A stretch of 64,000 nt of DNA from Membranipora membranacea (Eukaryota > Bryozoa > Gymnolaemata > Cheilostomatida > Membraniporidae). This document shows, in pieces, positions 3,950-62,834 of this stretch; position 1 is the stretch's first letter; each line of letters starts with the position of its first letter. Both the position numbers and the translations under genes were made by a program. The notes under the pieces are model-generated. The model searched no databases. It was not told the DNA's origin and saw only the letters and a program-made list of their open reading frames with translations. The stretch lies in the NCBI GenBank assembly GCA_914767715.1, contig OU612073.1, forward strand, positions 2,046,001-2,110,000, read 5' to 3'.

Positions 3950-5688
3950 AAATTGACGAGACGGTGTCTCCATTTTAGTCACAGCTCTGAGATTTCTGCC
4001 TGCCACATACCAACTGGCAATGATAAATTATGTTTATTGTGTCTTGTGTTATTTCTGTGGAGTTTTTGTTTGGTTATTAGTGACTGATTCACTTGTAGGC
4101 TTGTGATATTCTAGTGTTTTAGTTGGTCAATTTTTTATGACTTATAACCTAGCCGTCATTTTGGTCAGATAATTTATGGCAGTTTTTGCTACTACTCAGC
4201 AGAAATATCGGCTTACAATAATGTTTTAGATTTTAATGATGACTATAAATTATTGTGGGGTGTACCCTCGATCTTCATTGAGTTTGCTATTTGCCTGCCG
4301 CAATGATAACATCATATGTTTTGTGGCACAGCAGCATTGAATGATTTTCTTTATCAAATTGTATGAGGCAAATTGTGACTGTCTCGAAAGGTCATTGATG
4401 TATCAACGGGCTCCAATAACCCCTCAGAATTATTGGTAATATGTACTATGTATTACATATCATTATTTTTTATTTATTTTGTATCATGTCACATGAAATA
4501 AAATCAATTAATAGGTTTGCACCCCTGGTCTTTACAATCTTGGACAGTTTTTTCCTTGGATATACATACAAGCTCTCATCTTGAAGTAGTATTTCTGCTA
4601 ACTAATACCTACTTTCTCACTTTCCCCTACTGTGAGACACCTCTCAGTCTTTTGCACTCTATGACTATCCAAACAGTGGGAGAACACCAAGCATGATTAT
4701 ATTTCACATTCTTTGGTATAGCGTTCAACACTTTAGCATCAGAATTGAGTGACCTCATCGTACACATGGACAGTTAATCACATCATCATAATAGTGTTGT
4801 AAGAACATGATCATAGTTGAACAATGTGATAAGCAAAAACATCATGTTTTATATCATTAAAACCAAGCTGGTAACTGCTGCTTTGATTATGGCAAGTGAG
4901 TTTGTTGGTATTTTTTACATTTTTCTGTAAAAACAAAGTGACCTGTTAAGTTGCAGTTATTTTTGGACACTGATTAGTAGTCAAACGATGTAGATTACTT
5001 CAACTTATCTGAGCAGATAAATAAGACTGATGTAACTTTTATTTACAAGTCATTAGAAGTTATCTTTTCATCATTCATGAGAAGACAAGTACTACTTTCT
5101 ATAACAAATCGTCAATGTATCTGTAAATGCGTATTGTCAACCTTGGTTATAACTATAACTGTGAAGCGATGAATAATAAAGAAAAAGAATTGACTCTATA
5201 CATGTGCTGTAGAGTTATACTGTTAAATAACCGAGAGCCGGTCTCCCATTATCCGCTTATATGATATCAGACTATACAAAAATGTTTGCTATAAGCCAAC
5301 TGAGATAGACTCTTGAGGTTGCACTGTCTCCTTAATTCTAGGGATAAGGTGACCCTGTGTCATAGGACAGGCTAGCGTAGATCTGAACTTTACCGCAGTC
5401 ATCCAAAAAGTGACAATAGTGTTTTTAGTAAAATCGTATAATAAAATATGTCAGCTGTTATAATAATACTGAAAAATAAAAACAACTGCTAAGAATGTAA
5501 ACACTTTGTTAGAGAGAACAGCATCATATAACTTCTGGCTACAAAACTGATGTGTCATATTCTCTGTGAAACTAAAATAATAATACAGAAATGCTGAGTT
5601 ATGTGGCCTCAGAGAGCACCACATCATAAATGTCCTTTTGTACTCTAGGACATAATGTATCCTAAGATGTGACATCAGCTTCAGGTCT
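3950..5688. other. Convergent intergenic / 3' UTR region, copy A
   Basis: Lies between the tail-to-tail 3' ends of the coiled-coil locus (stop at 3,949) and the caspase gene (stop at 5,689). No coding sequence is supported. The 4,270-4,655 segment is absent from copy B, where the flanks are joined by a short GTAC/GCAC-like junction. It contains an AATAAA hexamer at 4,497-4,502 that could serve as a poly(A) signal for the plus-strand gene, but only in this copy. Confidence 0.6.
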
Positions 5689-8247
5689 TCACTTTGCCAC
5701 TTTCCACTTCAAAAACAACCGAGAGCTTTCCTTTTCTCCTTCAGTGATCTCTTCTAGTTCGCCTGGATAAACAAATAAAGTACATATGTTGAGGAAAGAA
5801 GATCAAACAACCACTGGGTTTTGAAAAGTCATGATTGAAATTAACATTTGGTTTACTTCTTCTTGTGGGTCAGAAGGAAAAGAAAAATTCCAAAACTGCT
5901 GGCAGATTTCAATCAAATAAATTAAGCACAATCAGGACCACGGGCTAAGAATCTTGGAATCCTGAAGGGCCAGTGCATCAGAGTAAGGGGGCAGACCCCT
6001 GAGGAACGCCAGCCGAACAAAAACTCAAAACTTGATCAAGGTTAAATCTCAAGATTGATTTGAGACCAGCGTTAGCATTCTACCCTAGAGTTCCTCTCCT
6101 GGGATCTGGAGCTATAATTGGCACAGCAAGGTTCAAGTAAATGGCTAGTTCCAGAATGCACTGCACATTGGGAGAACAGTGAAAAACCTTCTAATGAGAT
6201 AATCACGTTAAACTCAGACATACCAGGAAGCCAGGAGAGATAAGTCAGTCTTGGATTTCTGAGATCAGTAGTGAGACTATCTGGATGTTCTCCTTGTTTT
6301 CTCATATCTATTCCAGGCTGTAAGAAGAGCATCCTGGTTCCCATATTACAAGTTACCCTCGGCATCTGAGCTACGTATGCCTCTTCTTTCCTCTCAGGAG
6401 GGAGAGATGTCTTTAGCTGGATAGTAGCCTTAACAGTGAACTTATTCACTGCTTCCTGTATCTGTTAAACAACATGTCCGAATGCCTTATCAAACTATCT
6501 AGTTGAAAGTTTGAAAGTGTGATCTACGTTTCAGAGTTTCAATGATGTTAAACGCAACAGTTTTAACTTACACATACCATTCATTTGTCTCAATTTTCAA
6601 ATAAGTATCAAAATTTGGCAATGACATTGAAAAATGAAATTCATATGGAATCTGTCAAGATGGTTTAGTTCTAAAGGTAGAAACTTATGCACAAAAATAT
6701 TACTTTAAACAATGTCATGTACTTACTATGTTTCCCAGCATCTGAAGGTGATATCGATGAGCATACTTGTAGAAAGTGATAATCAAACCTCTTATGAAGG
6801 GCGATCCATTCTGATCTCGAGGAGCAACAAAACCTGAAACACATCAATCAATATAAAAATATGAATAGTTTATCGCTGCTTTTCAAGCTGGTAGTGAACA
6901 GGGGATTTTATTTGTTTTAATCAGATAGTCTCTGTAGGGTTATTTATGTGAAGCTACTTTTACTCACCGTCAAAGCTAGACTGTATGATGAAGAGATCAG
7001 CTACTAAGCCATCTTCTGGTTTGTTATCCATATAGTATGTCCTTATACGTGAGTTGTCTCCTGATGCTTGACCTAATTCTGTACTGACTTCTGTGTGCAC
7101 TGCTGGGTCTGGTGCTATCACATCATCGAGCATTATATCCCTGTTACCTATAAATATGACAACAGTAACATTTTAGTTCACTTCAACTGATAACTGAAGG
7201 AGTACCTCTAGGTTTGATCCAGAGACATATTTTGCTATCAGAGTAAAATACAGTTCATATATAAATCCATATATCCATATATATATATATATATATAAAA
7301 CCAATGACCTATCAGGCTATCTAACATACAGTTATTGCATCAATGAGAGGGAGTTCATTGATTGCATCAGGTAAGGTAAACATGATTTCAATCGCAAAAA
7401 AATAATTATGGTTTTTGCTAATGAATGGATGTCCCAATAGAAATATACATACATTACAGTCGTCCTTACTTTGTGAATTAGATCAAGTATGATCCAATTT
7501 GCCTGGTTCCATGCCGCCAGCAGTTGAATGGAAACAGCCACAATGTGGTCAAATAGGATCAAGCCTGATCTATTTGGGCATGGTAAGACTTAGACTTTGA
7601 TATGAATGTGCTGTGCTCTGATGGCAGTGGTCATTTGTATTTAGTAGTAAAATTTACTAACCTCCAGCACAGGCTTGTATAATGATGAGTTTTGGTTTTC
7701 CTTTCATAGCCGGGAAATTTCTGGCTGAGATTAACTGATAGATTTCAGTCAGCCTGATGTGTTCGTTATCTGACCCTTGGACACTCCCTTCAGCACCATG
7801 ACTAGTTATAACCAGTACAAACATTCCTAGATCTTTGTATACTGAGCAGCCTGTCTGGTCTACCAGCTGAGTTTCTCTGTGAATATCTGTCACTATATCC
7901 TTTAGAAAATCAAATGTTCATTGTCACTGGGCAGCGATGGAGACCGGCCTCACTGACAGAACGCTGTCAGGGACATTAATATAAACTAACTCACTGATGA
8001 TTGAATAAATCACAAAAGGAGGCTGCTGCCTAGGCTAAATAGACAATGGAAAATTGTTTACCTTTGACCTGTAGTTTTTATACTCTCCATTCACAACAAA
8101 CCCAAAGTTCTCCAACATATTCTTCATATTCTCATGATCTTTGTCAGCACCCTTTCTCCGGTCTAACTCTCCCTCTAGGTTTGTGTACTCAAACTTATTA
8201 GACAGTATGAGAGCTCTACCTCTTGTCTTAGTCATCTTATATAACAT
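5689..8247 (-). CDS. Caspase (C14) p20-p10 exons of copy A
   Basis: Six exons encode a canonical caspase. The p20 part opens with TKTRGRALILSN, whose Arg matches the S1-pocket Arg of animal caspases, and continues with a D...ML..FGF pattern. The next exon (7662-7899) carries both catalytic motifs, SHGAEG and QACAG. The p20-p10 linker has candidate Asp cleavage points (APDP and KPEDG). The p10 part has DLFIIQSS and FVAPRDQNGSPFIRG; its Arg corresponds to the second S1 Arg of the usual SWR motif. It ends with the MLFLQPG strand and a short tail of about 45 residues. The Arg residues, SHG and QACxG separate it from metacaspases and paracaspases. It lies at the C-terminus, so the whole upstream chain acts as a very long prodomain. 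Confidence 0.9.
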
Positions 8248-11200
8248 CTAACATAGGATGATGTAATATGTTATGTTCACATCATGGATGATCGCGAAAA
8301 ATGAATACTGTCATCTCAAAGAAAATATTTGTACTACAAAACTTGAAGGTTTGTGTGGCAGCAGGGAGGGTGGGAGGCGACAGGTGACGTAAACGTTACA
8401 CTGTGTCTTAAAATAAACAATAAATAAATCAATATGCTCTCCCCTATTAAGGAAAATTACCAGTACGTACACATTCATAGTGCTCAGAGCATCATTTGAA
8501 TCAGTTGTTTGCATCACATTGTGAATCAAATAATGAATAGTCAACGATGGGAGTTGTCCACTCTTTGAACAAGTATACACTACTCCTAAATATGGATGCT
8601 TGTCGTTACCTCGACCAGTTATGTGTAGGAGTAATATTTCATGCATCTCTAATAGATCTGAGCAAATATGACCAAGAGGGTAGATGAAAAATATGTTCAT
8701 ATAGAGCCACTCAAAATTAGGTATATTGGACTAACTTACCATTTCCTGTGAGATAGTTGACTGTAAGTCCCTGATGACCAGCGGTAGGTCGATTATTGGA
8801 GGTTGTGATTTCATCAACTCTATGATCTCATCCACAGCTTCCTCATTATTCTGTGTATCATTTCTGACATTCTCTCCACCAGCTGCTACTGCTCTGTGTG
8901 TCTCTTCTGGTTGTACAGCTGTGGGGCATTCAAAAGGAAATGTGAGAAAAATTAACAAAATTAACAATGATATATAACTTAGGATAATAATGATATTATA
9001 CTCTTGTTACAGAAGGTAAATTTAGATTCCCTGTACAGACCCAGACCAGCTGATGTATCTGGTGGCTGGAGAGTGGAGATATAGGTGCTGACTTTATCTT
9101 TTTCTGCTTCTGTCAGCGACAAACCTGCCGAAAAAAAGAAATGATAATGTTATATACCCAAACAAATGAGTGATTCACATTCTACAACCGAGAATATTTC
9201 TATAAAAACAGATGAAAACTTTCTACTTGCATGGCTGAAAATAGAAGTAAAAGCAAAAACATGTACAAGATTCAAGATTTATGCTTGGTCTCCTCACACT
9301 TACATGGAAATCTTAGAGGCCTCGGTACTTGGAGTTGTCCACCGTTAGTTTGGTCGTTACAGCAAGGCACAGGGTCAGCGTTAGAGAGGAGTGTGCTCAG
9401 CTGATGAGAGAGAGGTACATCTTTGTTAGTGTGTCTCAGAGGAGAATACCAATCTGGATCTACTTCTGTCTCAGGCCCACACTCTTGTAGATACAGACAG
9501 TGAGCACAGTAGAACTCACAGATAGGTCGAGCTGCAACCCAGATAGACAGCAGGTGGTTGATAAGTGAGTCTGTGATGCTGATCAGCTGCTCCCATGAGG
9601 AATCTAACTTCTCCACAGGTGTATCCACCTGAACAGTGACTCTGCGATCAGCACTGCTGTGTCTTACACTGCTAATAGTGTTGCCATGATATACCATAGC
9701 TCCACTCCGAGCTGTTCTGATACGATTTCCGGAGTCAGTGAAGGGGGACAGATATACACAGGTTAGTAGGTAGTATGCATATGAGGGAAGGGATAGACCA
9801 AGAAACTTGATATCTACTCTAAGTTGTAGAAGTTTGTTGTCTGTAGAAATGAGGTCCAGTGAGTCAGTGGAGAAGTAAGGGATGATGAATGTATTTCTTG
9901 GTGTTTTGTGAATCGGACCACATAAGAGATGGAATGCCTTGAGTAATGGCAACGCCACCTCATATGGAAAGTTATGTTGTGAATACAAACTCGATAGAAC
10001 AGCCTCATCAACAACACCACTTTGCAACAGCTGACCAACAAGCTTCTCATACTTCACTTTAGGAATCATCTCATTTCCTACAGCTATGAAGTTTGGTTGG
10101 GCTGCCAGTCTAGACTCCCATCGATCTCTCAATCTGTGATGAAACAAAAGGGCGATGGCATCAGTGACGGCAGTAAGTCTGTGAAAAACATATCCCCTCA
10201 GACTATCCTCATGTTCAAACCACAGAATTCTACCGACATTGTGCATGTAGCGGAGCACCGTCAGATTTGCGTCACCTGGGAATTTCTTTGTGACTTCAGT
10301 GAGAAGAATGAAGGGCACATCACTGTTCTGATCAAAGAAGAGAAGCAGTAACTCCCAAAGTTTTGGGATTATTGTGAAGAATGGTTCAGCTCTGATCTGA
10401 AGGGTCTGCAATATCTGAAGAATAATCTCCTTACTGTTATCACTGCTATCTAACTCAAATATATTCTGTGGAGGAAAGATTTCTGATGATGACGAGAAGA
10501 GGGCAATACTACAGAACTCAGAGGGACCTTTAGTAAATCCCTTCTCCTCCTCTATCATATCCCTGATTAGAGAAGTCAGAGTACCTAGCAGCTCAATCTT
10601 TCTGGTGTCAAAAACAGAAACATCAGAGAATTTGTCTTTATGGGTGAGGACAAGAAGAGGAGGGCCTAGACGAGGACATGACACATATAAATGTGACATG
10701 TAGTCCAGGACCAGTATCCTCACTGCTTCTTTCGGGCCACCTGATGACAACAACTCCTCAAACTGCTCCATATTGACAACAATGACTGGAATATAATTAC
10801 TTCGTATTACCATGTGATAGGAAATATGGTAAATACGGTCACCTCCAAAATCAAATACTTTCAACTGTGACTCTCCAACTGTGATCTCATCCATTTTGAA
10901 AACCTCAGTAGTGTCATCCTCAATTCCTTCTCTGTTACGATATGTGAGACTTCTTTCCTTTGTTTTCAAACTATTAATGAGACTAGTTTTACCTGCCATT
11001 CTGTTCCCGATCACTGCTGCAGACACTATAGGAAGCTTTACACCACCGTGCTGTTTGAGATCTGTGTAGTATTTTCTTATAGCCTGCAGGCCCTGATTAC
11101 AGACTGCAAAGGGAGGAGATGTCAGAGCTGTACACATCCAACAGTCCAGCTCCTCTAGAGCAGGTAGAAGAAGAAGACGAGAGTCTAATGATTGGAGGGA

Positions 11201-14200
11201 TCTGTTGGTTCGGAGTATCAGTGCCTTGAGCTTCTTCAGTTGTAAAATAACTGGTGGGAGAGATGTGAAGTTATTAGCTCCTATACGTAATTCCTCCAGG
11301 TTTGAGAGATTTGAAAGCCTGAAATAATAATTGTAAGAGCTACAAGGATTTAGATAAAATACATGCGTCTATTCTCAATAACAGTCTACAGCTCTTTTAG
11401 CACCGTTGCCTGAAATATTGGCTAAGCAACAAGGGGCAGATGATAGTGTGCCTCAGGTACCACAAATATAGACTCGAAATGAATTTCATTCTTACAGCAT
11501 CATTGCGGGATTAAATCTGGTAGAGTGTAACTTTTGCCCTGTCTCCCAAATATCAGACCTCTACAATCCCCACAACTCCTCGTTGATTTATATTTTTTTT
11601 TTGCACTAGGTCTTAGGTCTAGGTCTTTTTTGCACTAGGTTATATAGTTAACTTAACATCCTAATAATGTGTTGATTCGGACTTTTTTGTTCGATCCCAA
11701 AACAAACAATCATGGCTAATATTTATTATTATTATTCTTATCTAACCAACATAAAGAGTTTCCAGTACATCGCCTTGTTATAAGACTTCCCAAGTATAGC
11801 CGATATGATCAAATGAATTTGATGAAAAACAAGGGGATCATAAACAATGAACACAAACACATAAAACAAGACATTCAAACTGTGCCCGGGTAAGAGTGGC
11901 GTTTGAACATTAGCCAGGATACTAAACAGCAGAGTTTCACGTTCCACTTTGCTTATAAGGTGGAAAAAGGTATTTCACCTAAATTTGATAATGGTGTTTA
12001 AAAAACCTGTTGGAAATATATATATAATATAGATATAATGATACATATATACTTCTATCAGTCATATACAGAATACACCAACATACCTGGTACTTATCTC
12101 AGTGAGACCACAGTTATGCAGATGCAGCTCAGTCAGCTGAGTCAGCTCACACAGACCATCAGGTACAGAGCTGAGTGCAGTGTTATCACTGAGGTTCAGG
12201 GTCTGTAACTTAGTCAGCTGTGATATTCTGTATATATATAATTTGAGTCAGAAATAATAACTTGTGCTGGAGGATTTATGTTATCATACATTTTTAAATG
12301 ATAAATCAAATTTACTTCATTCCGCATGAAAATTATCAACCTATATCATAATATCTCATATTGAATCCGAATATCTATATAATTAATAAATAGAGAATTA
12401 TTTTCCTGCTACATGAGAACAAAGATGAATTTACGCTACTGATATCAGTCACATATAAAACACACACGTACCTGGCACTGATATCAGTCAGACCACATGT
12501 ATACAGACGCAGCTCAGTCAGCTCAGTCAGCCTATACAGACCATCAGGTACAGAGCTGAGTGCCTCGTTTTTACTGATGTCCAGGTACTGTAACTTAGTC
12601 AGCTGTGATATCCTGTATTATATAAATAATATGAGTCAGAAACAGTATCTTGTGCTAGAGGATTGATATTAACCAGCAACATATTATTTTAAAGTGACAG
12701 TCCTACTAGGCCATGTTTGGTATAGTTTTAAATATCACAGGCTGAAAAGTCATTGAGGCATATGAATTGACACAGCCTGTGAACCTAGCCGCAGTAAAAC
12801 TGCTGCAAAGTCTGAAAATTTAGATCATAGTGGATCATAGTGATTCATTGCCTCCCCCTGACCACTATGATCCACTATGATTCTTGCTAAAATATTTAAA
12901 ACTAACAACTAAAAACTAAAATGCTATTTTCAACAATTTTAATTTTTTTAAAACTTTTATTTGCCCTATGAACTCACAATATTCAAGTTACTTTTTTAAT
13001 AGGACTGTCACTTTGAGTAAGGCGCAATATTTCTTATTTCATACCATCATAATCACAACGAATTCAAAATTTTTTGTGAAAGGATCAGAGTTTTTATCCA
13101 CTGCTGTGAGAGTGTACAGCACATGTTGTGTAAAATTTTATATATTAGTACATGTAGAACATGGCCAAGTTCAATACACAAGTTTAAATACTTAAATTGA
13201 TTAATTACTAAATTCCTTGATGGTATGCAGTAAAAGGTTTTTTGTTAAGTTTAAGATTAAATGTAATCATATATTTTCATTTTGCCTCTGTATGTCAGTT
13301 GTGGTGTATACTGGCCACCAATAATAAATAAGGGCGATGCAAGAGTAGCCGGTGTCACATAGAAGGCTGCGGATAGATTGTTTCATGTAAAGTTTTCTCA
13401 TTTTTAATTCCAATCAAAAGAATGAAACAAAACGACATCAACTAAGACTTATTCAAGCTTGCTGTTGGATAAGAATGTTCTGCTAATGCTTTTTAAGTGA
13501 GAGTAAGCGGGCTGTGAGACAAGGATAGAGATAATAGGAGCCTCGCCCGGGTCATATCACTGACAAATAACTCAGAAATATAGCATAATAGTATCATGTG
13601 TACTCAACTTACATCTGCCATTCAAATGTGCCCTGCCTGAGAGAGTCTTCATCAATAGCCCCCAGTGTGAGCTGTAGGAGATGAGGAGCTATAACTGGTA
13701 ACCAGGAGGGAAATTTCTTCAGACCAGAGATACTGAGATGAGTGATAGAGTTATCTCCCTTATCTAACTCTATCTCCCTTACAGTCATCCTTCTGAAGTC
13801 TGTGTACGGTATGTAACGTATCCCCTCTATCTCCTCCTCTCCTGAGTGTCTGTACCAGACAGTGTACGTATCTATAATGTGATTATATAATAGACAAATA
13901 TAACAAGGTATTAAAGATCATAAATATTATAATTATACTGATCTTTGTGTACTCATAATACTTATATGGGAATGATAGATAACAGTTTGATAAATTGTTG
14001 TCAATCATACCATAGAATTTATAATGAAATAAAAATTGGTTCAAGTTTAGGATCAGCTGTAAGTGATAACATTCAGGGTGAAAGTATAAATGTTTATACT
14101 TTCTCCCAGCTTAACATGAGCCAGACCACCCTGAAACTGAAGGTTACTATTACTTGATGAATCTGGCAGGTACAGGTTGGTCGGTGTGGTTTGAGTTGTC

Positions 14201-15560
14201 TGACCTAAGGTGCAGAATATGGTACATTTGAGGAGCAGTCGAGTTGATAAAACACACCAAACAACCTGTGAGAAGAGGAATACAACAACGTTATTAATTG
14301 TCTGACCTTATATGCCAATGTCTTTTGCTTATAAAACCTTCAGCAGGGAGAATTATCCTTACTTTTAGCTATTGCAACAATTTCTGTTTCCTAACATCAG
14401 GAAAAGGTCCCATCATTTAAGAGATTGAAATATTGTCATAAAATTGGAACAGTTCTGAGCTATTTGCAGCTACTGAAGAGGTTCACTGCTATAACAGTAA
14501 ACAGGATTAATGATGCCCTTTGCTTACAACAATGAGTAAGATAATTTCCCTCTGTAAACAGGAAAGACAGTCATACCATCATTATCAGAGTTATCCCCTC
14601 CATCATCAGCAGAGTTATCCCCTCTCTCATCATCAGAGTTATCCCCACTCTCACCAAAATTTGATTCGGAGTTATCTACAATCTCAGCTAGTATGATGAC
14701 CTCTTCCTGGTATATCTCTTCAGTGATGTCATTTCCACTACAAGTTACACAGTCTCCCTGATCTATTAGAAATACATCTGTGTTAGCTGCTGAATTTATG
14801 CATCACAAATCATGAGTGTAATATTACAGTTTTTTTTTTAGTTTGACAAGGTTAATCAACTCCGCCTCCACCGGGGGATTCATCATAGACAATGATAGTG
14901 AAGAAATTTGACGATTGATATGAGTTTCAGCAAGTTTTGTGCTGAAAAATATGTCCTGTAAATAGTGATCAACCACGCATCTCTGTATAAAGACAAACTG
15001 CTAATGGAAATACCCATCCGGGGCCAACTGGCCACCTTTTCACCTTGTATCAATTTCAAGATGTCACCATAGAAAAGCCATCTGGTTGCAAATATTGTAG
15101 CCGGATGGTCTAGCAGCAATTTGTATTACAAACCCATCCGCATGGCAACTGCTGGTTGCCCAATACCAACTAGAAAGGGCATTCATTCGCCTACTGATGC
15201 CGTATACCCATCCGTATCTGTTTTTATCCCAGTAAACTATTCTGGATGGTTTCCCCTTATAAAAACCCATCTGGCAACTGCTGGTTGCCAAGTTGTCATC
15301 ATGCAGCTGACAAATAGCCTGGTTGGTACTTTGGAAACCACTTGAGTTCCAATATAGCTAAACAAACTTTCACTCAGCAAATTCCGAGGCTAATTGGTGC
15401 AAAATAACCCTACTGAAATGGCATAACATAAATTAGATTGTCAAACAATTTCATTCTTACCGTCAGAAACTGTCTGTCCACCACCTTTAGCTGAGGGAGG
15501 AGGATCATTTCTATTTGAAGAAGACTCAGCTTTTCTGATACATGATAGGTAACTTCCCAT
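5689..15560 (-). CDS. LRR-Roc-COR-caspase fusion protein, copy A (14 coding exons)
   Basis: Exons from 5' to 3' on the minus strand: 15461-15560, 14577-14762, 13613-13871, 12472-12612, 12087-12227, 9304-11318, 9011-9124, 8740-8918, 8062-8247, 7662-7899, 6968-7147, 6727-6833, 6224-6461 and 5689-5762. All junctions are GT-AG, phases match at every join, and the total is 4158 bases: 1385 residues plus stop, with no internal stop. Order: MGxxxSC N-terminus; acidic D/N/S repeat (about 75-95); LRRs (about 150-340); Roc (P-loop GNRMAGKTS at about 380, switch II DFGG at about 432, THKD at about 501); COR (about 588-880); linker; caspase p20 with His about 1141 (SHG) and Cys about 1184 (QACAG); then p10. 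Inferred role: a GTP-switch-regulated, possibly membrane-anchored Asp-specific protease in death or immune signalling. Domain calls are by motif; the exon model needs transcript support. Confidence 0.88.
8740..9124 (-). CDS. Linker exons between COR and caspase, copy A
   Basis: Two exons, 9011-9124 and 8740-8918, encode about 98 residues with no recognised fold. The second part is acidic and Asn-rich followed by a possible helix (EEAVDEIIELMKSQ), ending just before the caspase exons. In caspases this position normally holds a prodomain; no CARD or death-effector signature is visible. The donor of the first exon is GTAACA here, but is mutated to AT in copy B. Confidence 0.75.
9304..11318 (-). 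CDS. Last LRR + Roc GTPase + COR exon, copy A
   Basis: A single 2015-base exon. It starts with the last LRR repeats (LSNLEELRIGANNFTSLP, then LPALEELDC), followed by Roc: P-loop GNRMAGKTSL, switch II VFDFGGDRIYH and a G4-like LTHKDKF. The COR domain includes the typical VGRILWFE segment. Roc and COR always occur together in ROCO proteins (LRRK, MFHAS1, DAPK1), where COR mediates dimerisation and Roc binds guanine nucleotide. No kinase domain follows; the caspase exons take that place. The copy B exon has exactly the same length and is nearly identical in Roc and COR, which suggests constraint or recent origin. Confidence 0.93.
12087..12612 (-). CDS. Two leucine-rich-repeat exons, copy A
   Basis: Exons 12472-12612 and 12087-12227 are both 141 bases, both begin and end in phase 2, and encode near-duplicates of ISQLTKLQxLxIS...LSSVPDGL..LTELTELRL. 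Each exon is therefore an LRR cassette of about 47 residues (roughly two repeats). Symmetric phases let such exons be added or lost without breaking the frame; copy B has three of them. Confidence 0.9.
12693..13012. mobile_element. MITE-like TTAA element, complete, copy A only
   Basis: Terminal inverted repeats AGTGACAGTCCTA... / ...TAGGACTGTCACT flanked by TTAA (12,689-12,692) and TTGA (13,013-13,016, a one-base change). It has an internal hairpin around repeated ATCATAGTGGATCATAG and no coding capacity. The equivalent intron site in copy B (about 60,250) is empty, reading TTTTAAGTAAGG straight through, which confirms the boundaries and shows insertion after the duplication. The TTAA target points to a piggyBac-type transposase acting in trans (inference). 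Confidence 0.85.
13613..13871 (-). CDS. LRR N-terminal cap exon, copy A
   Basis: A 259-base exon linking the acidic exon to the LRR cassettes. The peptide includes VWYRHSGEEEIE, then ITHLSISGLKKFPSWLP and LLQLTLGAI, which look like a capping region and first degenerate LRRs. The copy B partner (60848-61109) is three bases longer and noticeably more divergent in the middle (PYTDFRRM versus FDQPDYRDM). Confidence 0.8.
14577..14762 (-). CDS. Acidic-repeat exon, copy A
   Basis: A 186-base exon, phase 1 to phase 1. It ends with about three imperfect units of an 8-residue acidic repeat (DNSDDERG and variants). It is preceded by an acidic helix-like segment (EEIYQEEVIILAEIVD). Likely a flexible charged linker between the N-terminal anchor and the LRRs. 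The copy B exon is 144 bases longer, exactly six more 24-bp units. Confidence 0.85.
15461..15560 (-). CDS. First coding exon, MGxxxSC N-terminus, copy A
   Basis: Encodes MGSYLSCIRKAESSS followed by a Pro/Gly-rich stretch, ending in phase 1. Gly2, Ser6 and a nearby basic residue fit the N-myristoylation consensus, and Cys7 could be palmitoylated. Copy B conserves the first 12 residues exactly. The ATG follows a TATAG that can serve as a splice acceptor, so a 5' noncoding exon probably joins here. Without splicing, that TAG would be an in-frame stop upstream of the ATG. Either way this is the most likely start codon. Confidence 0.75.
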
Positions 15561-25195: not shown

Positions 25196-25196
25196 A

Positions 25197-29939: not shown

Positions 29940-29944
29940 ATAGT

Positions 29945-51893: not shown

Positions 51894-54428
51894 TCACTTT
51901 GCCACTTTCCACTTCAAAAACAACCGAGAGCTTTCCTTTTCTCCTTCAGTGATCTCTTCTAGTTCGCCTGGATAAACAAATAAAGTACATATGTTGAGGA
52001 AAGAAGATCAAACAACCACTGGGTTTTGAAAAGTCATGATTGAAATTAACATTTGGTTTACTTCTTCTTGTGGGTCAGAAGGAAAAGAAAAATTCCAAAA
52101 CTGCTGGCAGATTTCAATCAAATAAATGAAGCACAATCAGGACCACGGGCTAAGAATCTTGGAATCCTGAAGAGCCAGTGCATCAGAGTAAGGGTGCAGA
52201 CCCCTGAGGAACGCCAGCCGAACAAAAACTCACAACTTGCTCAAGGTTAAATCTCAAGATTGATTTGAGACCAGCGTTAGCACTCTACCCTAGAGTTCCT
52301 CTCCTGGGATCTGGAGCTATAATTGGCACAGCAAGGTTCAAGTAAATGGCTAGTTCCAGAATGCACTGCACATTGGGACAACAGTGAAAAACCTTCTAAT
52401 GAGATAATCACGTTAAACTCAGACATACCAGGAAGCCAGGAGAGATAAGTCAGTCTTGGATTTCTGAGATCAGTAGTGAGACTATCTGGATGTTCTCCTT
52501 GTTTTCTCATATCTATTCCAGGCTGTAAGAAGAGCATCCTGGTTCCCATATTACAAGTTATCCTCGGCATCTGAGCTACGTATGCCTCTTCTTTTCTCTC
52601 AGGAGGGAGAGATGTCTTTAGCTGGATAGTAGCCTTAACAGTGAACTTATTCACTGCTTCCTGTATCTGTTAAACAACATGTCCAAATGCCTTATCAAAC
52701 TATCTAGTTGAAAGTTTGAAAGTGTGATCTACGTTTCAGAGTTTCAATGATGTTAAACGCAACAGTTTTAACTTACACATACCATTCATTTGTCTCACTT
52801 TTCAAATTAGTATCAAAATTTGGCAATGACATTGAAAAATGAAGTTCATATGGAATCTGTCAAGATGGTTTAGTTCTAAAGGTAGAAACTTATGCACAAA
52901 AGTATTACTTTAATCAATGTCATGTACTTACTATGTTTCCCAGCATCTGAAGGTGATATCGATGAGCATACTTGTAGAAAGTGATAATCAAACCTCTTAT
53001 GAAGGGCGATCCATTCTGATCTCGAGGAGCAACAAAACCTGAAACACACCAATCAATATAAAGACATGAATAGCTTATCGCTGCTTATCAAGCTGGTAGT
53101 GAACAGGGAATTCTTTTGGTTTTAATCAGATAGTCTCTGTAGGGTTATTTATGTGAAGCTACTTTTACTCACCGTCAAAGCTAGACTGTATGATGAAGAG
53201 ATCAGCTACTATGCCATCTTCTGGTTTGTTATCCATATAGTATGTCCTTATACGTGAGTTGTCTCCTGATGCTTGACCTAATTCTGTACTGACTTCTGTG
53301 TGCACCGCTGGGTCAGGTGCTACGACATCATCGAGCATTATATCCCTGTTACCTATAAATATGACAACAGTAACATTTTAGTTCACTTCAATTGATAACT
53401 GAAGGAGTACCTCTAAGTTTGATCCAGAGACATATTTTGCTATCAGAGTAAAATGCAGTTCATATATAAATCCATATATCCATTATATAACCAAACACCT
53501 ATCCTATCTATCATACAATTATTGCATCAATGAGAGGTAGTTCATTTATTGCATCAAGTAAGGTAAACATGATTTCGATCACAACAAAATAATTATGGTT
53601 TTTGCTGATGAATGGATGTCCCAATAGAAATATACATACATTACAGTCGTCCTTACTTTGTGAATTAGATCAAGTATGATCCAATTTGCCTGTTTTCGTG
53701 CCGCCAGCAGTTGAATGGAAACAGCCACAATGTGGTCAAATAGGATCAAACCTGATCTAATTGGGGATGGTAAGACTTAGATATGAATATGCTGTGCTCT
53801 GATGGTAGTGGTCATTTTTATTTAGTAGTAAAATTTACTAACCTCCAGCGCAGGCTTGTATAATGATGAGTTTTGGTTTTCCTTTCATAGCCGGGAAATT
53901 TCTGGCTGAGATTAACTGATAGATTTCAGTCAGCCTGATGTGTTCGTCATCTGACCCTTGGACACTCCCTTCAGCACCATGACTAGTTATAACCAGTACA
54001 AACATTCCTAGATCTTTGTATACTGAGCAGCCTGTCTGGTCTACCAGCTGAGTTTCTCTGTGAATATCTGTCACTATATCCTTTAGAAAATCAAATGTTC
54101 ATTGTCACTGGGCAGCGATGGAGACCGGCCTCACTAACAGAACGCTGTCAGGGACATTAATATAAACTAACTCACTGAGGATTGAATAAATCACAAAAGG
54201 AGGCTGCTGCCTAGGCTAAATAGACAATGGAAAAATGTTTACCTTTGCCCTGTAGTTTTTATACTCTCCATTCACAACAAACCCGAAGTTCTCCAGCATA
54301 TTCTTCATATTATCATGATCAATGTCAGCACCCTTTCTCCAGACTTGTTGACCTTGTTGATTAGTGTACTCATACTTATTAGATAGTATGAGGGCGCGAC
54401 CTCTTGTCTTAGTCATCTTATATCTCAT
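51894..54428 (-). CDS. Caspase (C14) p20-p10 exons of copy B
   Basis: Six exons with the same lengths as in copy A (186, 238, 180, 107, 238 and 74 bases). TKTRGRALILSN, SHGAEG, QACAG and APRDQNGSPF are all conserved. The first exon differs from copy A mainly in one patch (TNQQGQQVWRKGADID versus TNLEGELDRRKGADKD); the remaining exons are almost unchanged. Active-site residues are intact, so decay of this half has not begun. Confidence 0.88.
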
Positions 54429-57400
54429 CTAAAATAGGGTAGGGCGGGCATATTTTAGTCTCTACACTTCATCTGTCTTGAGATTAGTAGTAAACACAAA
54501 TCAAAACCGCTAGAACTCAATATTTCAACCCTATTTCAACTTATAGGAATTTTGATTGGTTCATTTATTCAGATTTGTAGTAAGAAAAGATATCATATTC
54601 AAAAGATATTCCTTGAGTCGTCTGCTTTTTCAGCGAGCAACCACAACTTCTAAGCATAACTCTTGTTTGTATTTATATCTTCTGTGTAAAGCTCTGAGTC
54701 GGATAAATATTTCTGAGCAGTTACTTTTTATTCGTTAGCAAGTAAAATGCAGATAAAGTCTCACTTAGGCTGTCATGTGTCTATAGTTGAATAAGGAGAA
54801 CTTACTGTTTCCCGTGAGATAGTTGACTGTGAGTCACTGAGGACCAGCGGTAGGTCGATTATTGGAGGTTGTGATGTCATCAGCTCTATGATCTCATCCA
54901 CAGCTTCCTCATTATTCTGTGTATCATTTCTGACATTCTCTCCACCAGCTGCTACTGCTCTGTATGTCTCTTCAGGTTGTATAGCTGTGAGGAGACAATT
55001 TAAATGAATTGTGAGTGAATCTGGCCAATTAAATAGAGAATAAAGAAGTCTGAGAAACAATTTATAGATATATAACTCAAGAAGTCAATAATGATATTTA
55101 GGATAATAATGATATTACAATCTTGTTATTGAAGGATAATTTAGATTGGCTGTACAGACCCAGACGAGCTGTTGAGTCCGGTGGCTGGAGAGTGGAGATA
55201 TAAGCGCTGACTTTATCTTTATCTGGTTCTGTCAGCGATAAACCTGTCGGAGAGGAGAATAAATAATGTTATGTCACTGACCGAATAAATAAATAGGATC
55301 AAGCTTAAATTGATGATCAAAGGAAGTTAGTTATGTTACATTAATACACACCCAAGAACCATGAAAAAAATGATCAAAATAATTTAATTGAATGGCTGAA
55401 AGTATTCGGAAATCAATTTACTGAAAGAAAGGAGATGTACAACAAATAAGATTTGTGTGGGATCTGCTCACACTTACACGGAAATCTTAGAGGCCTCGGT
55501 ACTTTGAGTTGTCCACCGTTAGTTTGGTCGTTACAGCAGGGCACAGGGACAGCGTTAGAGAGGAGTGTGCTCAGCTGATGAGAAAGAGGTAGATCTTTGT
55601 TAGTGTGTCTCAGAGGAGAATACCAATCTGGATCTTCTTCTGTCTCAGGCTCAGACTCGTGTAGATACAGACAGTGAGCACAGTAGAACTCACAGATAGG
55701 TCGAGCTGCAACCCAGATAGACAGCAGGTGCTTTATGAGCGAGTCTGTGATGCCAATCAGTTGCTTCCATGAGGAATCTAATTCCTCCACAGGTGTATAT
55801 ACCTGTACAGTGACTCTGCGATCAGCACTGCTGTGTACTACACGGCTTACAGTGTTACCATGGTGTACCATAGCACCGTTACGAGCTGTACTGATACAGA
55901 GACCGGGGTCAGTGAAGGGGGTCAGATATACACATGTTAGCAGGTAGTATGCGTACGAGGGGGGTGATAGGCCAAGAAAGTTTATATCCACTCTAAGTTG
56001 TAGAAGCTTATTGTCAGTAGGAATAAGGTCCAGGGCGTCAGTGGAGAAGTAGGGGATGATGAATGTATTCCTTGGTGATTTATGAACTGGACCACATAAG
56101 AGATGGAAAGCCGTAAGCAGTGGCAAAGCCACCTCATATGAAAGGTTTGGCTGACAGAACAAGTTCAATAGAACAGCCTCATCAACGACTCCACTCTTCA
56201 ACAGAAGATCAACAAGTTTTGTGTATCTCTTTTTTGAGATCATCTCATTTCCTATAGCTATAATCCTGGGTTGGGCTGCCAGTCTAGACTTCCACCGATC
56301 TCTAAATCTGTGATGAAACAGGAGAGCGATTGCGTCGGTGACGGCAGTAAGTCTATGGAAAACATATCCCCTCAGACTATCCTCATGTTCAAACCACAGA
56401 ACTCGACCAACATTGTGCATATAACGGAGCACAGTGAGATTTGCATCTCCTGGAAACTTTTTTGTGACTTCAGTGAGAAGAATGAAGGGCACATCACTCA
56501 TCTGATCAAAGAAGAGAAGAAGCAACTCCCAAAGTTTTGGGATTATTGTGAAGAATGGTTCAGCTCTGATCTGTAGGGTCTGCAGTATCTGGAGGATAAC
56601 CTCCTTACTGTTATCACTGCTATCTAACTCAAATATATTCTGCGGAGGAAAGATTTCTGATGATGATGAGAAGAGGGCAATACTACAGAACTCAGATTGA
56701 CCTTTAGTAAATCTCTTCTCTTCCTCTATCATATCCCTGATTAGAGAAGTCAGAGTACCTAGCAGCTCAATCTTTTTGGTGTCAAAAACAGAAACATCAG
56801 AGAATTTGTCTTTATGGGTGAGGACAAGAAGAGGATGGCCTAGACGAGGACATGACACATATAAATGTGACATGTAGTCCAGGACTAGTATCCTCACTGC
56901 TTCTCTTGGGCCACCTGATGGCAACAACTTCTCAAACTGCTCCATATTAACAACAATGACTGGAATATAATTACTCCGTATTACCATATGATAGGAAATA
57001 TGGTAAATACGGTCACCTCCAAAATCAAAAACTTTCAACTGTGACTCTCCAACTGTGATCTCAGCCATTTTGAAAACCTCAGTAGTGTCATCCTCAATCC
57101 CTTCTCTGTTACGATATGTGAGACTTCTTTCCTTTGTTTTCAAACTATTAATGAGACTAGTTTTACCTGCCATTCTGTTACCGATCACTGCTGCAGATAC
57201 TATAGGGAGCTTTACACCACCGTGTTGTTCGAGATCTGTGTAGTATTTTCTTATAGCCTGCAGGCCCTGCTCACAGACTGCATAGGGAGGAGATGTCAGA
57301 GCTCCACATTGACGACAGTCCAGGTTCTCTAGAGCAGGTAGAAGAAGAAGACGAGAGTCTAATGATTGGAGGTTACTGTTAAGGTAGAGGGTCAGTGTCT

Positions 57401-59199
57401 TGAGCTTCTTCAGTTGTATAATAACTGGTGGGAGAGATGTGAAGCTATTAGCTCCTATATTTATGGTCTCCAGGTTCGAGAGATTTGACAACCTGAAAAA
57501 ATAATTGTATGAGCTATAAGAATTTAGATAAAATACAGACGTCTATTGTCAATATCAGTCTACAGCTCTTTTGGCACCATTGCCTGAAATAATTGTAAAG
57601 CATCAAAGGGCACAAATATAGACATGACATAAATTTAATTCAACACTGTGTTAATTGCATCATGCATCATTGGGTGATTATATCTGGTAGGTCGTAACTT
57701 GTCTCCCTCCGCTCAATATCTCACCCCATCCCAACAACTCCTCACCAATGAGTGAATTTATGATTAATTTGTATTTATAATGGCTATGTGCGGCTTCAGT
57801 ACGTTTGTGTACAAATCCCAAAATAATCATTCATGGCCGACATCAATGATTTTTTTTTTGAAGTTGGTGTAATCGCGCATAGGCAACTTAAAGTAGACTG
57901 CCCTGTTTATATTTTATTATTTTATTATGTGTGATAGTTTGGCAACTTTTTGAATAGGCAAAAATTGACATCTTAGGTCAGATTCGCAGCCTCTTTGTGT
58001 TTTTGGGAAATTCTCACAATTCCTCGAAAGAGGTTTGTCTGAAGAGAATCATATTGTCTTTGAAAGGGTGAAAGAAAACCTCATGGCCAACATAGTCTCG
58101 CTTCTCAAGTTTTATATGGGCTCATTTAATGAGACAGCAAGATGGCGCTGATGGCTACTACCTCCACTACTATCGACACCCTCAACATGGAAGCTCTACA
58201 CCTAATTTTATCATCCTACCAAGAGCTTCATAGGCGTACCAGGGCAAAAGGTTCTTTTACAGATGCGATTTCCACCATGTTGAAAATGATCAGATGTTAA
58301 TCAGCTGTTCTCAGCTCATCTCTACATTTTAGGTATGCAGTTGACTCTGCAGGCATTTTCTATCTACTTTGCTTGTTGACAGTTGAGGGACTTCAAATGA
58401 AATTGAACCGAAACATTGTTTATTATGGGAACTCAACTCTTTAGGAAAAAAATCTGAATTAAATCTCATGTAAGAGCAAGATGGCTCTGAATGTCGCCAA
58501 CCAATGCTTTGAAAATATACAGCGAAGAGGCCATAAATTGGTTTCAGAAAAAAGACATCCACATTTTCAAAAAAAGCCAGATTTGATGACAACAATTAAA
58601 AACTATGGTAAACACGTCAAACATCACTACTGTATCATATGTATATTTTGGGTCTACAATATTTGAAAATACTACTTGTAGTATAGACAAATCGGAAAAT
58701 AATTTTTCACTTAATATTTGCTCCTGAAACGTACAAATATATTTAAAGACATTGAGAATTCGTCTTCATCGGTGAAATCCTAAAATTTTGGAAAACAGAA
58801 ATTTGCTTTACGTGTGTACTGTGTACTGAAGTGGAAAATTTTCTCGAAAAAGCGAATTTTTTAGAGGAAAAATAATTATTAGTTGTCTTCTTCTTGTACA
58901 GGAAAAAACCAATCTTTAAACTTACTTATATCATAATTATTCTTAATGGACAACTGTCGAATTCCTATTGGCTGAGGGATGGGAGCTTTCACCATTCCAG
59001 TCAGTTGCATGTTAATGCACTGATCATTCTGAATTTGGGTAACTTGAAATTTGAGGATGGCTTTTAAAGACTAACGGAAACATACATACTTATATCAGTC
59101 ATATAAAGAATACACACATATACCTGGTACTTATATCAGTATATCGAATATCTATATAATTAATAAATATGATGGTGGTGTTTAAAAAACCTGTTGGAA

Positions 59200-59231
<32 letters not shown>

Positions 59232-62200
59232 TAAAATGAGATATATATATATATATATTTCTATCAGTCATAATATACAGAACACACACACATACCTGGT
59301 ACTTATCTCAGTGAGCCCACAGCTGCTCAGACGCAGCTCAGTCAGCTGGTTATAACTGAGGTCCAGGATCTGTAACTTAGTCAGCTGTGATATCCTGTAT
59401 TATATATAATATGAGTCAGATATAATTACTTGTGCTGGAGGATTAATATTATACAGCAAGATATTTCTCAAACAATATATTAAATTTTCTTCATTTCGCA
59501 TGAATATGATCAAAGTATATCATAATATCTCATTTTAAATCTGAATATCTTTATAATTAATAAATATAGAATTATTCTCCTGCTACATGTGAACAAAGAT
59601 GAATATACGATACTGATATCAGTCACATACAGAATAGACACACATACCAGGTACTGATATCAGTGAGACAACAGTTAACCAGATACAGCCCAGTCAGCTC
59701 AGTCAGCTCACACAGACAATCAGGTACAGATCTGAGTGGGTTATTACTGAGGTCCAGGATCTGTAACTTAGTCAGCTGTGATATCCTGTATTATATATAA
59801 TATGAGTCAGATATAATTACTTGTGCTGGAGGATTAATATTATACAGCAAGATATTTCTCAAACAATATATTAAATTTTCTTCATTTCGCATGAATATGA
59901 TCAAAGTATATCATAATATCTCATATTAAATCTGAATATCTTTATAATTAATAAATATAGAATTATTCTCCTGCTACATGTGAACAAAGATGAATATACG
60001 CTACTGATATCAGTCACATACAGAACACACACACATACCTGGTACTTATCTCAGTGAGCCTACAGTTCCTCAGATACAGCTTAGTCAGCTTAGTCAGCTC
60101 ACACAGACCATCAGGTACAGATCTGAGTGCTTGGTTATTACTGAGGTACAGGATCTGTAGCTTAGTCAGCTGTGATATCCTGTATTATACATAATATGAG
60201 TCAGAAACAGGAACCTGTGCTGGAGGTTTGATATTAACCAGCAACATATTTTAAGTAAGGCGCAATATTTCTTATTTCATATCATCATAATCACAAAGAA
60301 TTCAAAATTTTTGTGTGAAAGGATCCGAGTTTTTATCCACTGCTGTGAGAATGTACAGCACATGTTGTTTAAAACTTTATATATTAGTACATGTGGAACA
60401 TGGCAAAGTTCAATACACAAGTTTAAATACTTAAATTGATTAATTACTAAATTCCTTGATGGCATGCAGTAAAGTTTTTTGTTAAGTTCCAAGATTAAAT
60501 CTAATCATATATTTTCAATTTGTCTATGTATGTTATTTGTGGTGTATACTGGCCACCAATAATAAAAATGGGCGATGCAAGTGTAGCCGGTGTCACATAG
60601 AAGGCTGCGGATAGATTGTTTCATGTAAGGTTTTCTCATTTTCAATTCCCATCAAAAGAATGGAACAAAACGACATCAAATAAGACTTAATTCAAGCTTG
60701 CTGTAGGATAAGAATATTTTGCTAATGCTCTAGTAAGTGTGAGTAACCGGGCTGTGAGACAAGGATAGAGATAATAGGAGCCTCGGTCATATCACTGCTA
60801 AATAACTCAGAAATATAGCATAATAGTATCATGTGTACTCTACTTACCTCTGCCATTCAAATGTGCCCTGCCTGAGAGAGTCTGTATTTATACTCTCCAG
60901 TTTAAGCTGTAGGAGATGAGGAGCTTTATCAGGTAACCAGGAGGGAATACTCTTCAGACCAGAGATACAGAGATGAGTGATAGAGTTATCTCCCTTATCT
61001 AACTCTATCTCATCCCATGTCATGTCTCTGTAGTCTGGTTGGTCAAAGTATGATGGTATCCTCTCTATCTCCTCCTCTCCTGAGTGTCTGTACCAGACTC
61101 TGTACTTCTCTATAATTTGATTATATTATAGATAAATATAATAAGGCATTAAAGATTCTAAATATTATAATTATATTGATCTTTGTGTACTCATAATACT
61201 TATATGGGAATGTAAGATAACAGTTAGATAAATTGTTGTCAACCACACTATAGAATTTAGAATGAAATACAGGTACAGGTTGGTCGGTGTGGTCTTAGTT
61301 GTCTGATCTTAGGTGCAGAATATGTTACATTTGAGGAGCAGTCGAGTTGATAAAACACACCAAACAACCTGTGAGAATAGGAATGCAACAACATTATGAG
61401 TTGTCTGACCTTACATGCCAATGTCTATTGCTCATAAAAACCGTCAGCAGGGAGAATTATCCTTGCTTTTAGCTATTGCAACCATTTCTGTTTCCTAACA
61501 TAAGGAAAAGGTCTCATCATTTAAATATTGTCATAAAAGCGGAACAGTTCTGAGCTATTTGCAGTTACTGGAGAGGATCACTGCTATAACAGTAAGCGGG
61601 GGCAATGACGCCCATTGCTTACACCAATGAGTAAGACAATCCCCACTGTAGCATGAAATACGTCCTTACCATCATCATCAGAATGATCCCCTCTCACATC
61701 ATCAGAGTTATCCCAACTCTCATCATCAGAGTTATCCTCTCTCTCATCATGAGAGTTATCCACTCTCTCATCATCAGAGTTATCCCAACCCTCATCATCA
61801 GAGTTATCCCCACTCTCATCATCAGAGTTATCCTCTCTCTCATCATCAGAGTTATCCAAACTCACATCAGCAGAGTTATCCTCTCTCTCACCAAAATTCG
61901 ATTCAGATTCATCTACAATTTCAGCTTGTGTGATGACCTCATCCTGGTATATCTCCTCAGTGATATCATTTCCACCACAAGTTACACGGTCTCCCTGATC
62001 TGATAGAAATACATTTGTGTTACCAGCTGAATTTATACATCACAATATTACAGCTTATCAGTTTATACTTCACGAATTATGTGTGTAATATTACAGATTA
62101 TCAGTCTGAGGAGGTTAATCAACTCCCCCCCCCCCTCTGGATTTCATTATAGACAATGATAGTGGACTTATCTGATGATTGATATGGGTTTCAGCAAGTT

Positions 62201-62834
62201 TTTGTGCTATAAAATGTGTCCGGTAAATAATGATCAACCACACACATCTGCATTAGGGCAAACTGCTTATGGAAATACCCATCCGGGGCCAACTGGCCAT
62301 CCTTTTCACCTTGTATCAATTTCAGCAGGTCTCTGTAATGAAGTCATCTGGTTGCAAATATTGTAGCCGCATGACCTAACAGCAATAGTTTGTATTATAA
62401 AACCGTCCGAATGGCTGTTTGGCAACCGTCTGTCGACAAATACCCACCTTTATCAGCAGACTGTTGCCGTTTACCCATCCGTATCTGTTTTTTATCACAG
62501 TAAACTATTCTGGATGTTTTTCCCCCTGTAAAAACCCAACTGGATGTCTCTCTGCTGGTTGGCAAATTGCCATCCTGCAACTGACAAAGAGACCGGTTGG
62601 TACTTTGGCAACCAATTGGGTTCCAATATAGCTAAAGAAACTTTCACTCAACAGTTTCCGAGGCTAATTGGTGCAAAATAACCCTATTGAAATGGCATAA
62701 GATAAATTAGATTGTCAAACAATTTCATCCTTACCGTCAGAAACTGACTGTCCATCACCTTTAGCTGAGGGAGGAGGATCATTCCCTTTTGAGGAAGGCT
62801 CGGCTTTTCTGATACATGAAAGATAACTTCCCAT
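51894..62834 (-). CDS. LRR-Roc-COR-caspase fusion protein, copy B (15 coding exons)
   Basis: Exons from 5' to 3' on the minus strand: 62735-62834, 61670-61999, 60848-61109, 60039-60179, 59648-59785, 59296-59394, 55478-57492, 55130-55243, 54806-54984, 54243-54428, 53843-54080, 53173-53352, 52932-53038, 52429-52666 and 51894-51967. Total 4401 bases: 1466 residues plus stop, all phases compatible and no internal stop. Same order as copy A: MGxxxSC start, acidic repeat (about nine units), three LRR cassettes, Roc P-loop about 461, COR, linker, caspase with His about 1222 and Cys about 1265. One defect: the donor after exon 55130-55243 reads AT instead of GT (C to T at 55,129 on the plus strand). 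If that blocks splicing, readthrough meets TAA about 30 bases later and removes the caspase; a cryptic donor could rescue it. So either a damaged paralogue or one making a Roc-COR-only form. Confidence 0.82.
54429..54805. other. Intron before the caspase exons, unrelated between copies
   Basis: No recognisable alignment to the matching intron in copy A (8,248-8,739), although both flanking exons align well. No coding function seen. Confidence 0.65.
55478..57492 (-). CDS. Last LRR + Roc GTPase + COR exon, copy B
   Basis: 2015 bases, identical in length to the copy A exon. P-loop GNRMAGKTSL, switch II DFGGDRIYH and LTHKDKF are unchanged. The LRR part differs more (LETINIGANSFTSLP, DCRQC versus DCWMC), and so does the COR region after the RLAAQP motif (ISKKRYTKLVDLLLKS versus IPKVKYEKLVGQLLQS). 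Confidence 0.92.
57600..59090. other. Enlarged intron, copy B-specific insertion
   Basis: The intron 57,493-59,295 is 1.8 kb, against 0.77 kb for its counterpart 11,319-12,086. The additional DNA shows no terminal repeats I could recognise. It holds two plus-strand frames starting from similar contexts (AGCAAGATGGC at 58,137 and 58,476). One is 52 codons (58,142-58,300, starting MALMATTSTT) and the other 61 codons (58,481-58,666). Neither resembles a known protein; coding status unproven. Confidence 0.45.
59296..60179 (-). CDS. Three LRR cassette exons, copy B
   Basis: Exons 60039-60179 (141 bases), 59648-59785 (138) and 59296-59394 (99). All are phase 2 to phase 2 and encode ISQLTKLQILxLSxN...LTELxL...CxLT.IST. 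The third lacks 42 bases in the middle (14 residues), leaving a shortened but in-frame repeat. The introns between them are close copies of each other (TATAATATGAGTCAGATATA), so the cassettes expanded by exon-plus-intron duplication. Confidence 0.88.
60848..61109 (-). CDS. LRR N-terminal cap exon, copy B
   Basis: 262 bases, phase 1 to phase 2. The peptide starts KYRVWYRHSGEEEIE, with ITHLCISGLKSIPSWLP further on, as in copy A. The centre is more divergent than the Roc-COR exon, consistent with faster change in the recognition half. Confidence 0.8.
61670..61999 (-). CDS. Acidic-repeat exon, copy B (expanded 24-bp repeat)
   Basis: 330 bases. The repeat part, roughly 61,670-61,885, has about nine imperfect 24-bp units coding DNSDDExx with variable last positions (RE, SG, GW, RV, SW). 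One unit has His for Asp and another starts DHS. The upstream part (EEIYQDEVITQAEIVDE) is shared with copy A. Confidence 0.88.
62100..62734. other. First intron, with a dispersed-repeat-like segment
   Basis: Part of intron 62,000-62,734. The segment around 62,270-62,640 matches 15,000-15,360 in copy A and contains repeated CCCATCCG and GGCAAC/GGTTGCC phrases; a related piece (GATGGGTTTGTATTACAA) recurs at 63,743-63,760. A short dispersed repeat family; no coding function. Confidence 0.5.
62735..62834 (-). CDS. First coding exon, MGxxxSC N-terminus, copy B
   Basis: 100 bases, phase 1 at the end. Encodes MGSYLSCIRKAEPSS and then a Pro/Gly-rich stretch. Residues 1-12 are identical to copy A. 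The ATG again follows a TATAG acceptor-like sequence. Confidence 0.75.

Follow-up and report, generated by a model that had tools for sequence, protein, structure and literature searches.

Predicted LRR-Roc-COR-caspase genes in two copies at a locus of the bryozoan Membranipora membranacea

Can an animal caspase be carried on the same polypeptide as a leucine-rich repeat (LRR) sensor and a Roc-COR GTPase switch? The question is raised by a locus of the bryozoan Membranipora membranacea, located in a stretch of 64,000 nucleotides (assembly GCA_914767715.1, contig OU612073.1, positions 2,046,001 to 2,110,000), hereafter the window, to which all coordinates below refer. A sequence-only reading had placed an LRR-Roc-COR-caspase gene at 5689..15560 on the minus strand, here called copy A. 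Our analysis indicates that a single frame of copy A carries predicted LRR, Roc and caspase domains. The window also holds a second complete gene of this kind, copy B (51894..62834, minus strand), which the earlier reading had missed and which was found by tblastn of the copy A protein against the window. Copy B consists of 15 exons and 14 GT-AG introns, encodes 1456 residues with no internal stop, and has the same strand and order as copy A. Being shared by two complete genes, the domain order is more than a product of chance, and copy B seems to retain the arrangement with constraint on both the switch and the protease. A third caspase or ROCO copy was considered and rejected, as tblastn gave only E values of 4.6-9.8 elsewhere in the window.

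The exons of copy A were chained by hand from a list of open reading frames and a list of scored splice sites, with the coordinates of the earlier model known beforehand. The resulting gene comprises 14 exons and 13 GT-AG introns on the minus strand; its coding sequence opens with an ATG at 15560 and stays in phase up to a stop codon ending at 5689. Its length depends on the end of exon 7: a donor at 9011 gives 1385 residues, and extension of the exon to 9041 gives 1375, both donors keeping an identical frame on either side. With the former, the previously proposed protein of 1385 residues from 14 GT-AG exons is reproduced exactly. However, copy B has AT where the 9011 donor would need GT, whereas the donor after 9041 is conserved in both copies. 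The 9011 end was therefore dropped in favor of 9041.

The first five exons of copy A, all on the minus strand as are those of copy B, compose a putative sensor half. Exon 1 (15461..15560; dN/dS, the ratio of nonsynonymous to synonymous substitution rates, 0.27) and its counterpart in copy B (62735..62834) contain the start codon and begin with MGSYLSC, the first 12 residues being identical. This start presumably fits an N-myristoylation pattern with a neighboring Cys. Exon 2 encodes an acidic segment rich in Asn, Ser and Asp (14577..14762), which in copy B (61670..61999) is an expanded repeat, longer by 144 bp. Exon 3 (13613..13871 in copy A; 60848..61109 in copy B) covers the region preceding the LRRs. 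The repeats themselves are encoded in copy A by exons 4 and 5 (12472..12612 and 12087..12227), each of 141 bp, in phase 2 at both ends and holding a pair of LRRs. In copy B, the LRR exons are three, namely the pair exons 4 and 5 (60039..60179 and 59648..59785) and a shortened exon 6 (59296..59394).

Comparison of the two copies, with region borders set by hand, suggests that the sensor half varies in its LRRs, while the Roc, COR and caspase regions are constrained. The dN/dS values are 0.18 for Roc, 0.08 for COR-A, 0.22 for the following COR part and 0.28 for the caspase. That of the LRRs is 1.52, although this is not significantly above 1 (p 0.20) and depends on an uncertain pairing of two LRR exons in copy A with three in copy B. 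We therefore dropped it as proof of positive selection. The difference between the LRRs and Roc-COR is clear (Fisher p 1e-9). When the strand motif LxxLxLxxN/C was applied to the four full-length LRR exons, with the shortened fifth excluded, 7 of the 10 exposed strand positions were variable versus 11 of the 36 others (p 0.03). The variation thus appears to follow the pattern of a ligand-binding surface.

The switch is encoded by a single large exon, exon 6 of copy A (9304..11318), corresponding to exon 7 of copy B (55478..57492; 88% identical over 671 residues), which contains the last LRRs, Roc and the COR region. A Pfam search with the whole copy A protein returned three LRR families and Roc (4.2e-7) above the cut-off, bearing out the Roc domain of the earlier reading. 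With the exon alone, Roc also scored above the cut-off in both copies (1.6e-7 in copy A, 1.8e-7 in copy B). The Roco protein of the Chlorobium species C. tepidum (PDB 3dpu) matched at 1.3e-5 over the LRR-Roc connector and Roc, and a profile of the two copies matched it at 3.5e-6, aligning over Roc only. Within Roc, the P-loop GNRMAGKT, DFGG and THKD (starting at 11008, 10852 and 10645 in copy A, minus strand) are placed in both copies. With these motifs in place, both Roc domains are predicted GTPases.

COR is less clear-cut. It had been proposed from the motif VGRILWFE (GRILWFE starts at 10234 in copy A), and COR-A does align over that segment, at the expected place, in both copies. However, its scores of 12-14 bits stay below the Pfam cut-off of 35.3 bits, and COR was not called by Pfam on the whole copy A protein. 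The E values are 0.15 (copy A) and 0.13 (copy B) with the whole exon, and 0.056 and 0.049 with its C-terminal part alone; by arithmetic, 0.056 would be about 2e-6 if one model of the 24736 had been asked. The single-copy comparison to 3dpu yielded a second, insignificant piece over the COR motif. NCBIfam gave eight weak matches to exon 6, all below the cut-off and mostly to LRR or GTPase models. A pattern scan with this exon, which reaches close relatives only, returned 14 matches from genome contigs, none of them confirmed, and no match from viral contigs.

The C-terminal part is assigned with more certainty. Peptidase_C14 matches copy A at 6.7e-29 over profile positions 1-232 of 233, as the earlier reading of a caspase with both S1 Arg residues, the His and the Cys had anticipated. 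The p20 subunit aligns to caspase-2 (PDB 3r5j) at 3.5e-15 and, from a YKM...RG start onward, to an ancestral effector caspase. By these two alignments, the first S1 Arg is assigned to RKGAD, whose Arg we take to be the residue lining the S1 pocket. The p10 part alone matches caspase-9 (PDB 1nw9) weakly (E 0.024), in an alignment that pairs the Arg of VAPRD with the p10 Arg of caspase-9. In copy A, p20 starts in exon 9 (8062..8247; RKGAD codon 8157-8155) and continues in exon 10 (7662..7899) with the catalytic His of SHG (7800-7798) and Cys of QAC (7671-7669). Exon 11 (6968..7147) holds the p20/p10 linker and the start of p10, exon 12 (6727..6833) the second S1 Arg in VAPRD (6819-6817), exon 13 (6224..6461) the remaining p10, and exon 14 (5689..5762) the C-terminal tail and stop codon. 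The equivalents in copy B are exons 10 (54243..54428; S1 Arg 54338-54336), 11 (53843..54080, with His and Cys), 12 (53173..53352), 13 (52932..53038, with the second S1 Arg), 14 (52429..52666) and 15 (51894..51967, with the stop codon). All four residues are thus placed in both copies, and the domain is predicted to be a caspase of animal type, with the catalytic and S1 residues present and a p20/p10 layout.

Caspase-2 and caspase-9 share this layout, the S1 Arg, the His of SHG and the Cys of QAC. They carry a CARD prodomain, whereas Roc-COR occupies the place of the prodomain here. The 12 Pfam families found at E<=1 with the whole copy A protein include no NACHT, NB-ARC, CARD, DED, death or kinase domain. 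Neither the NACHT or NB-ARC ATPase of NLR/STAND proteins nor the death-fold prodomain of CARD, DED or death-domain caspases is thus among them. The caspase part had no NCBIfam match, and the linker encoded by exons 7 and 8 gave only an ArsC match below the Pfam cut-off (0.039).

The question of one chain or two genes was addressed by comparing the copies over exons 6 to 9. The linker exons 7 (9041..9124, alternative end 9011; 55160..55243 in copy B, exon 8) and 8 (8740..8918; 54806..54984 in copy B, exon 9) align to their counterparts without a gap, at 88.1% and 93.9% identity, whereas the flanking introns 6, 7 and 8 are 64.2, 75.5 and 51.7% identical, with gaps. The first in-frame ATG of exon 8 in either copy is that of the Met in ELM(K/T)SQ. 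The part of the exon ahead of this Met is conserved, and an upstream coding exon is therefore needed. The junctions linking exons 6, 7 and 8 are in phase 1, whereas the one between exons 8 and 9 is in phase 0. The synonymous divergence (dS) is 0.44 in caspase exon 9 and 0.39-0.40 in COR, dropping to 0-0.08 in caspase exons 10-14. The older divergence thus extends from the ROCO region into the caspase, a pattern suggestive of their joint duplication, followed by a later event that homogenized the sequence 3' of exon 9. From the sequence data, a single transcript is likely, and it is quite probable that the full-length product exists, alone or beside shorter forms.

Besides the two limits on the LRR ratio and the sub-threshold COR-A scores given above, several observations weigh against a single chain with a sensor, a switch and a protease. 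No meaningful PDB match was obtained for the COR part together with the end of Roc, and the AlphaFold model of exon 6, built from two sequences only, is unusable at a confidence score (pLDDT) of 31. Other regions have a lower dS (exon 8, 0.06; Roc, 0.10; LRRs, 0.12), which makes the divergence patchy, and the equality of dS between COR and exon 9 is therefore suggestive only. Exon 8 has a dN/dS of about 1. Exons 1-4 are 81-90% identical and introns 1-3 84-89%; the upstream exons are no better conserved than the introns, so that the exon-intron contrast is limited to exons 6-9. Finally, the exon 7 donor (TGG|GTCTGT) is poor and uncertain, in-frame readthrough of exons 6 and 7 meets stops in both copies, the TAA after exon 7 lies at an identical place in both, and exon 9 opens with ATG in both.

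Because of the stops after exons 6 and 7, truncated LRR-Roc-COR forms are possible. One gene might then yield two products, the full chain and a truncated LRR-Roc-COR protein produced when intron 6 is retained or the transcript terminates in exon 7, which could serve as a decoy or brake. The length of exon 7 is divisible by three, and if it is left out, exons 6 and 8 still meet in phase, which would suit such alternative processing. However, stops are expected in most introns anyway. We regard this explanation as possible though doubtful; it is compatible with a full-length chain as the best explanation.

An arrangement of tandem genes accounts for the same region differently, and we judge it unlikely: an LRR-Roc-COR gene would terminate in exon 6 or 7, a short prodomain-less caspase gene would begin in exon 8 or 9, and the two would have nothing but their neighborhood in common. 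The ATG opening exon 9, the matching TAA after exon 7 and the weak exon 7 donor would fit it. So would the poly(A)-type hexamers in copy B, where intron 8 has AATAAA twice and intron 6 has ATTAAA once, although 2.3 such hexamers are expected. In copy A, there are none between the halves versus 1.8 expected; the counts are not decisive, and we dropped the absence in copy A as evidence for a fusion. Against two genes, exon 8 is conserved ahead of any in-frame ATG, and the phases of exons 6, 7, 8 and 9 are compatible in both copies. Moreover, between the exon 7 donor and the TAA, 7 of 20 residues differ and none of the changes is synonymous (hand count), so that this stretch looks non-coding. The YKM...RG start is present in other caspases as well.

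We are inclined to favor, with moderate confidence, the reading that the locus encodes a single polypeptide acting as a self-contained immune-type receptor. The sequence itself shows the predicted domain order in one frame, the catalytic residues, and two intact copies whose sensor half varies and whose switch and protease are constrained. We infer that one transcript would be made and that acylation of the N terminus would place the receptor at the membrane, where the variable LRR region would sense and bind a ligand. The Roc-COR unit would then shift its nucleotide state and dimer geometry. The C-terminal caspase domains, brought together in this way, would become activated and cut their own p20/p10 linker; activation by proximity is the rule for initiator caspases. 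The activated caspase might act on nearby substrates or be released, with cell death or an immune response as the presumed output.

The direction of the switch may be the reverse. Roc-COR proteins shift their oligomer state with the nucleotide, and a review describes the C. tepidum Roco, in the presence of GTP, as mainly a monomer (PMC6337361). If that is valid here, the caspases would meet in the other nucleotide state, and GTP might separate them instead of joining them.

A different role for the protease is conceivable, in which the caspase is a releasing device that cuts its own chain or a partner and frees a membrane-held LRR-Roc-COR part, with no cell death. The myristoylation-type N terminus of both copies and the lack of a death-fold domain among the Pfam families at E<=1 would be in line with it. 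However, the usual targets of caspases are other proteins, and we consider such a device quite improbable.

Both genes sit in a segmental duplication of about 16 kb, as far as the window covers it (1-15856 versus 46555-63332). Its left part (1-8257 versus 46555-54438) is about 96% identical and its right part 78-90%. Identity changes around caspase exon 9 and intron 9, where mismatches drop from 25 of 186 positions in the exon to 3 of 162 in the intron, and this points to gene conversion or recombination there. Copy B might instead be an artefact of the assembly, with the alternative haplotype set in tandem, and its support for copy A would then be weaker. We consider this very unlikely: an identity of about 96%, as in the left part, is within the range of heterozygous marine invertebrates, but the right part is only 78-90% identical, and the differing number of LRR exons together with the 144-bp coding difference is much for two alleles.

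Taken as a receptor family, the two genes may represent an animal type in which one membrane-anchored chain combines sensor, GTP switch and caspase, as an adaptor-free "one-protein inflammasome". Its LRR half would diversify by gain and loss of exons and by point changes, while recombination within or close to the first caspase exon would homogenize its caspase half between neighboring copies. We advance this only tentatively, as falling somewhat short of an even chance. If true, it would mean that the sensors change while the protease is kept. Animal caspases usually reach their sensors via CARD, DED or death-domain contacts. A chain combining LRR sensor, Roc-COR switch and caspase would pose directly the question of whether a dimer change of a ROCO protein turns on a protease, and a caspase read-out of the ROCO mechanism would be simpler than the kinase of LRRK2.

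The domain order itself is not new, contrary to the sequence-only reading, which had taken it as undescribed. The comparisons that follow draw on excerpts of the cited sources. Bacterial LRR-AP-GTPase-COR proteins have at least 24 kinds of C-terminal domain, a caspase among them (PMC8195603), although an earlier review knew prokaryotic Roco proteins as LRR-Roc-COR only (PMC6337361). The bacterial proteins share with the present genes the order of LRR, Roc, COR (weak here) and a C-terminal effector, and we count as further likeness their several copies per genome and predicted role against invaders (PMC8195603). Unlike them, the genes here have spliceosomal-type introns (13 in copy A and 14 in copy B), a myristoylation-type start, and a caspase that is nearest to caspase-2 and caspase-9 among PDB chains, the bacterial kind being known to us by description only.

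The range of outputs given for known ROCO proteins by the same reading, a kinase, a death domain or none, proved too narrow, because animal Roc-COR-TIR proteins have been described: an LRR-Roc-COR-TIR protein, NG1, in sea anemones (PMC5094078) and Roc/COR with TIR in Aplysia (PMC9334734). These resemble the present genes in joining Roc-COR, with LRRs in NG1, to an immune-type effector in one animal chain, and differ in that their effector is TIR. MFHAS1, LRRK1/2 and DAPK1 have the Roc-COR tandem in common with them, and MFHAS1 and the LRRKs also LRRs; their output is none, a kinase, or a kinase plus a death domain, and the excerpt names no caspase (PMC6337361). Brown algal ROCO genes likewise have phase 2 LRR exons that shuffle and vary in number, under diversifying selection (PMC11378527). 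However, each of their 72-bp exons encodes one LRR of 23 residues, while here a 141-bp exon encodes two.

For animals, the figure legend of a work on sponge NLRs names caspase and COR (PMC12909245), and amphioxus has many caspases with new architectures (PMC3196919). No Roc-COR-caspase protein appears in the excerpts of PMC6321704, PMC6208332 and PMC8242945. Among the matches listed from the open-licence PMC literature, no report of an animal LRR-Roc-COR-caspase was found, which does not prove absence. With the order already described from bacteria, what looks new here is the variant that pairs an animal caspase with a variable LRR half. It would supply an animal counterpart to the bacterial LRR-Roc-COR-caspase proteins and bear on the assembly of animal cell-death modules.

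Several other elements accompany the two genes. Intron 3 of copy A contains an element of about 200-300 bp at 12680-12992, about 71% identical to 1-194 and 46478-46748, which lie close to the left-hand borders of the duplicated blocks; the corresponding intron of copy B lacks 326 bp. Coiled-coil-like open stretches on the plus strand at 1882-2133, inside a duplicated block, and at 46275-46658, across its left edge, matched no Pfam family above the cut-off. A similar stretch at 40187-40495, plus strand, had only below-cut-off Pfam matches (USHBP1 and p85 iSH2). Between the two gene copies, 24976-29941 is a Gypsy-type long terminal repeat (LTR) retrotransposon of recent insertion, with two identical 222-bp repeats and a gag-pol open reading frame of 1405 residues containing reverse transcriptase, RNase H and integrase; its ends read as TG...CA, with an ATAGT target duplication. 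At 33348-34572, minus strand, a remnant of a non-LTR retrotransposon has two overlapping frames that hold fragments of a reverse transcriptase and an endonuclease. A tandem pair of about 1.05 kb (19239-20291 and 20335-21390) is 97.4% identical, and is adjoined, at about 18.8-19.1 kb, by a long stretch of simple repeat that is translated as HTYI repeats.

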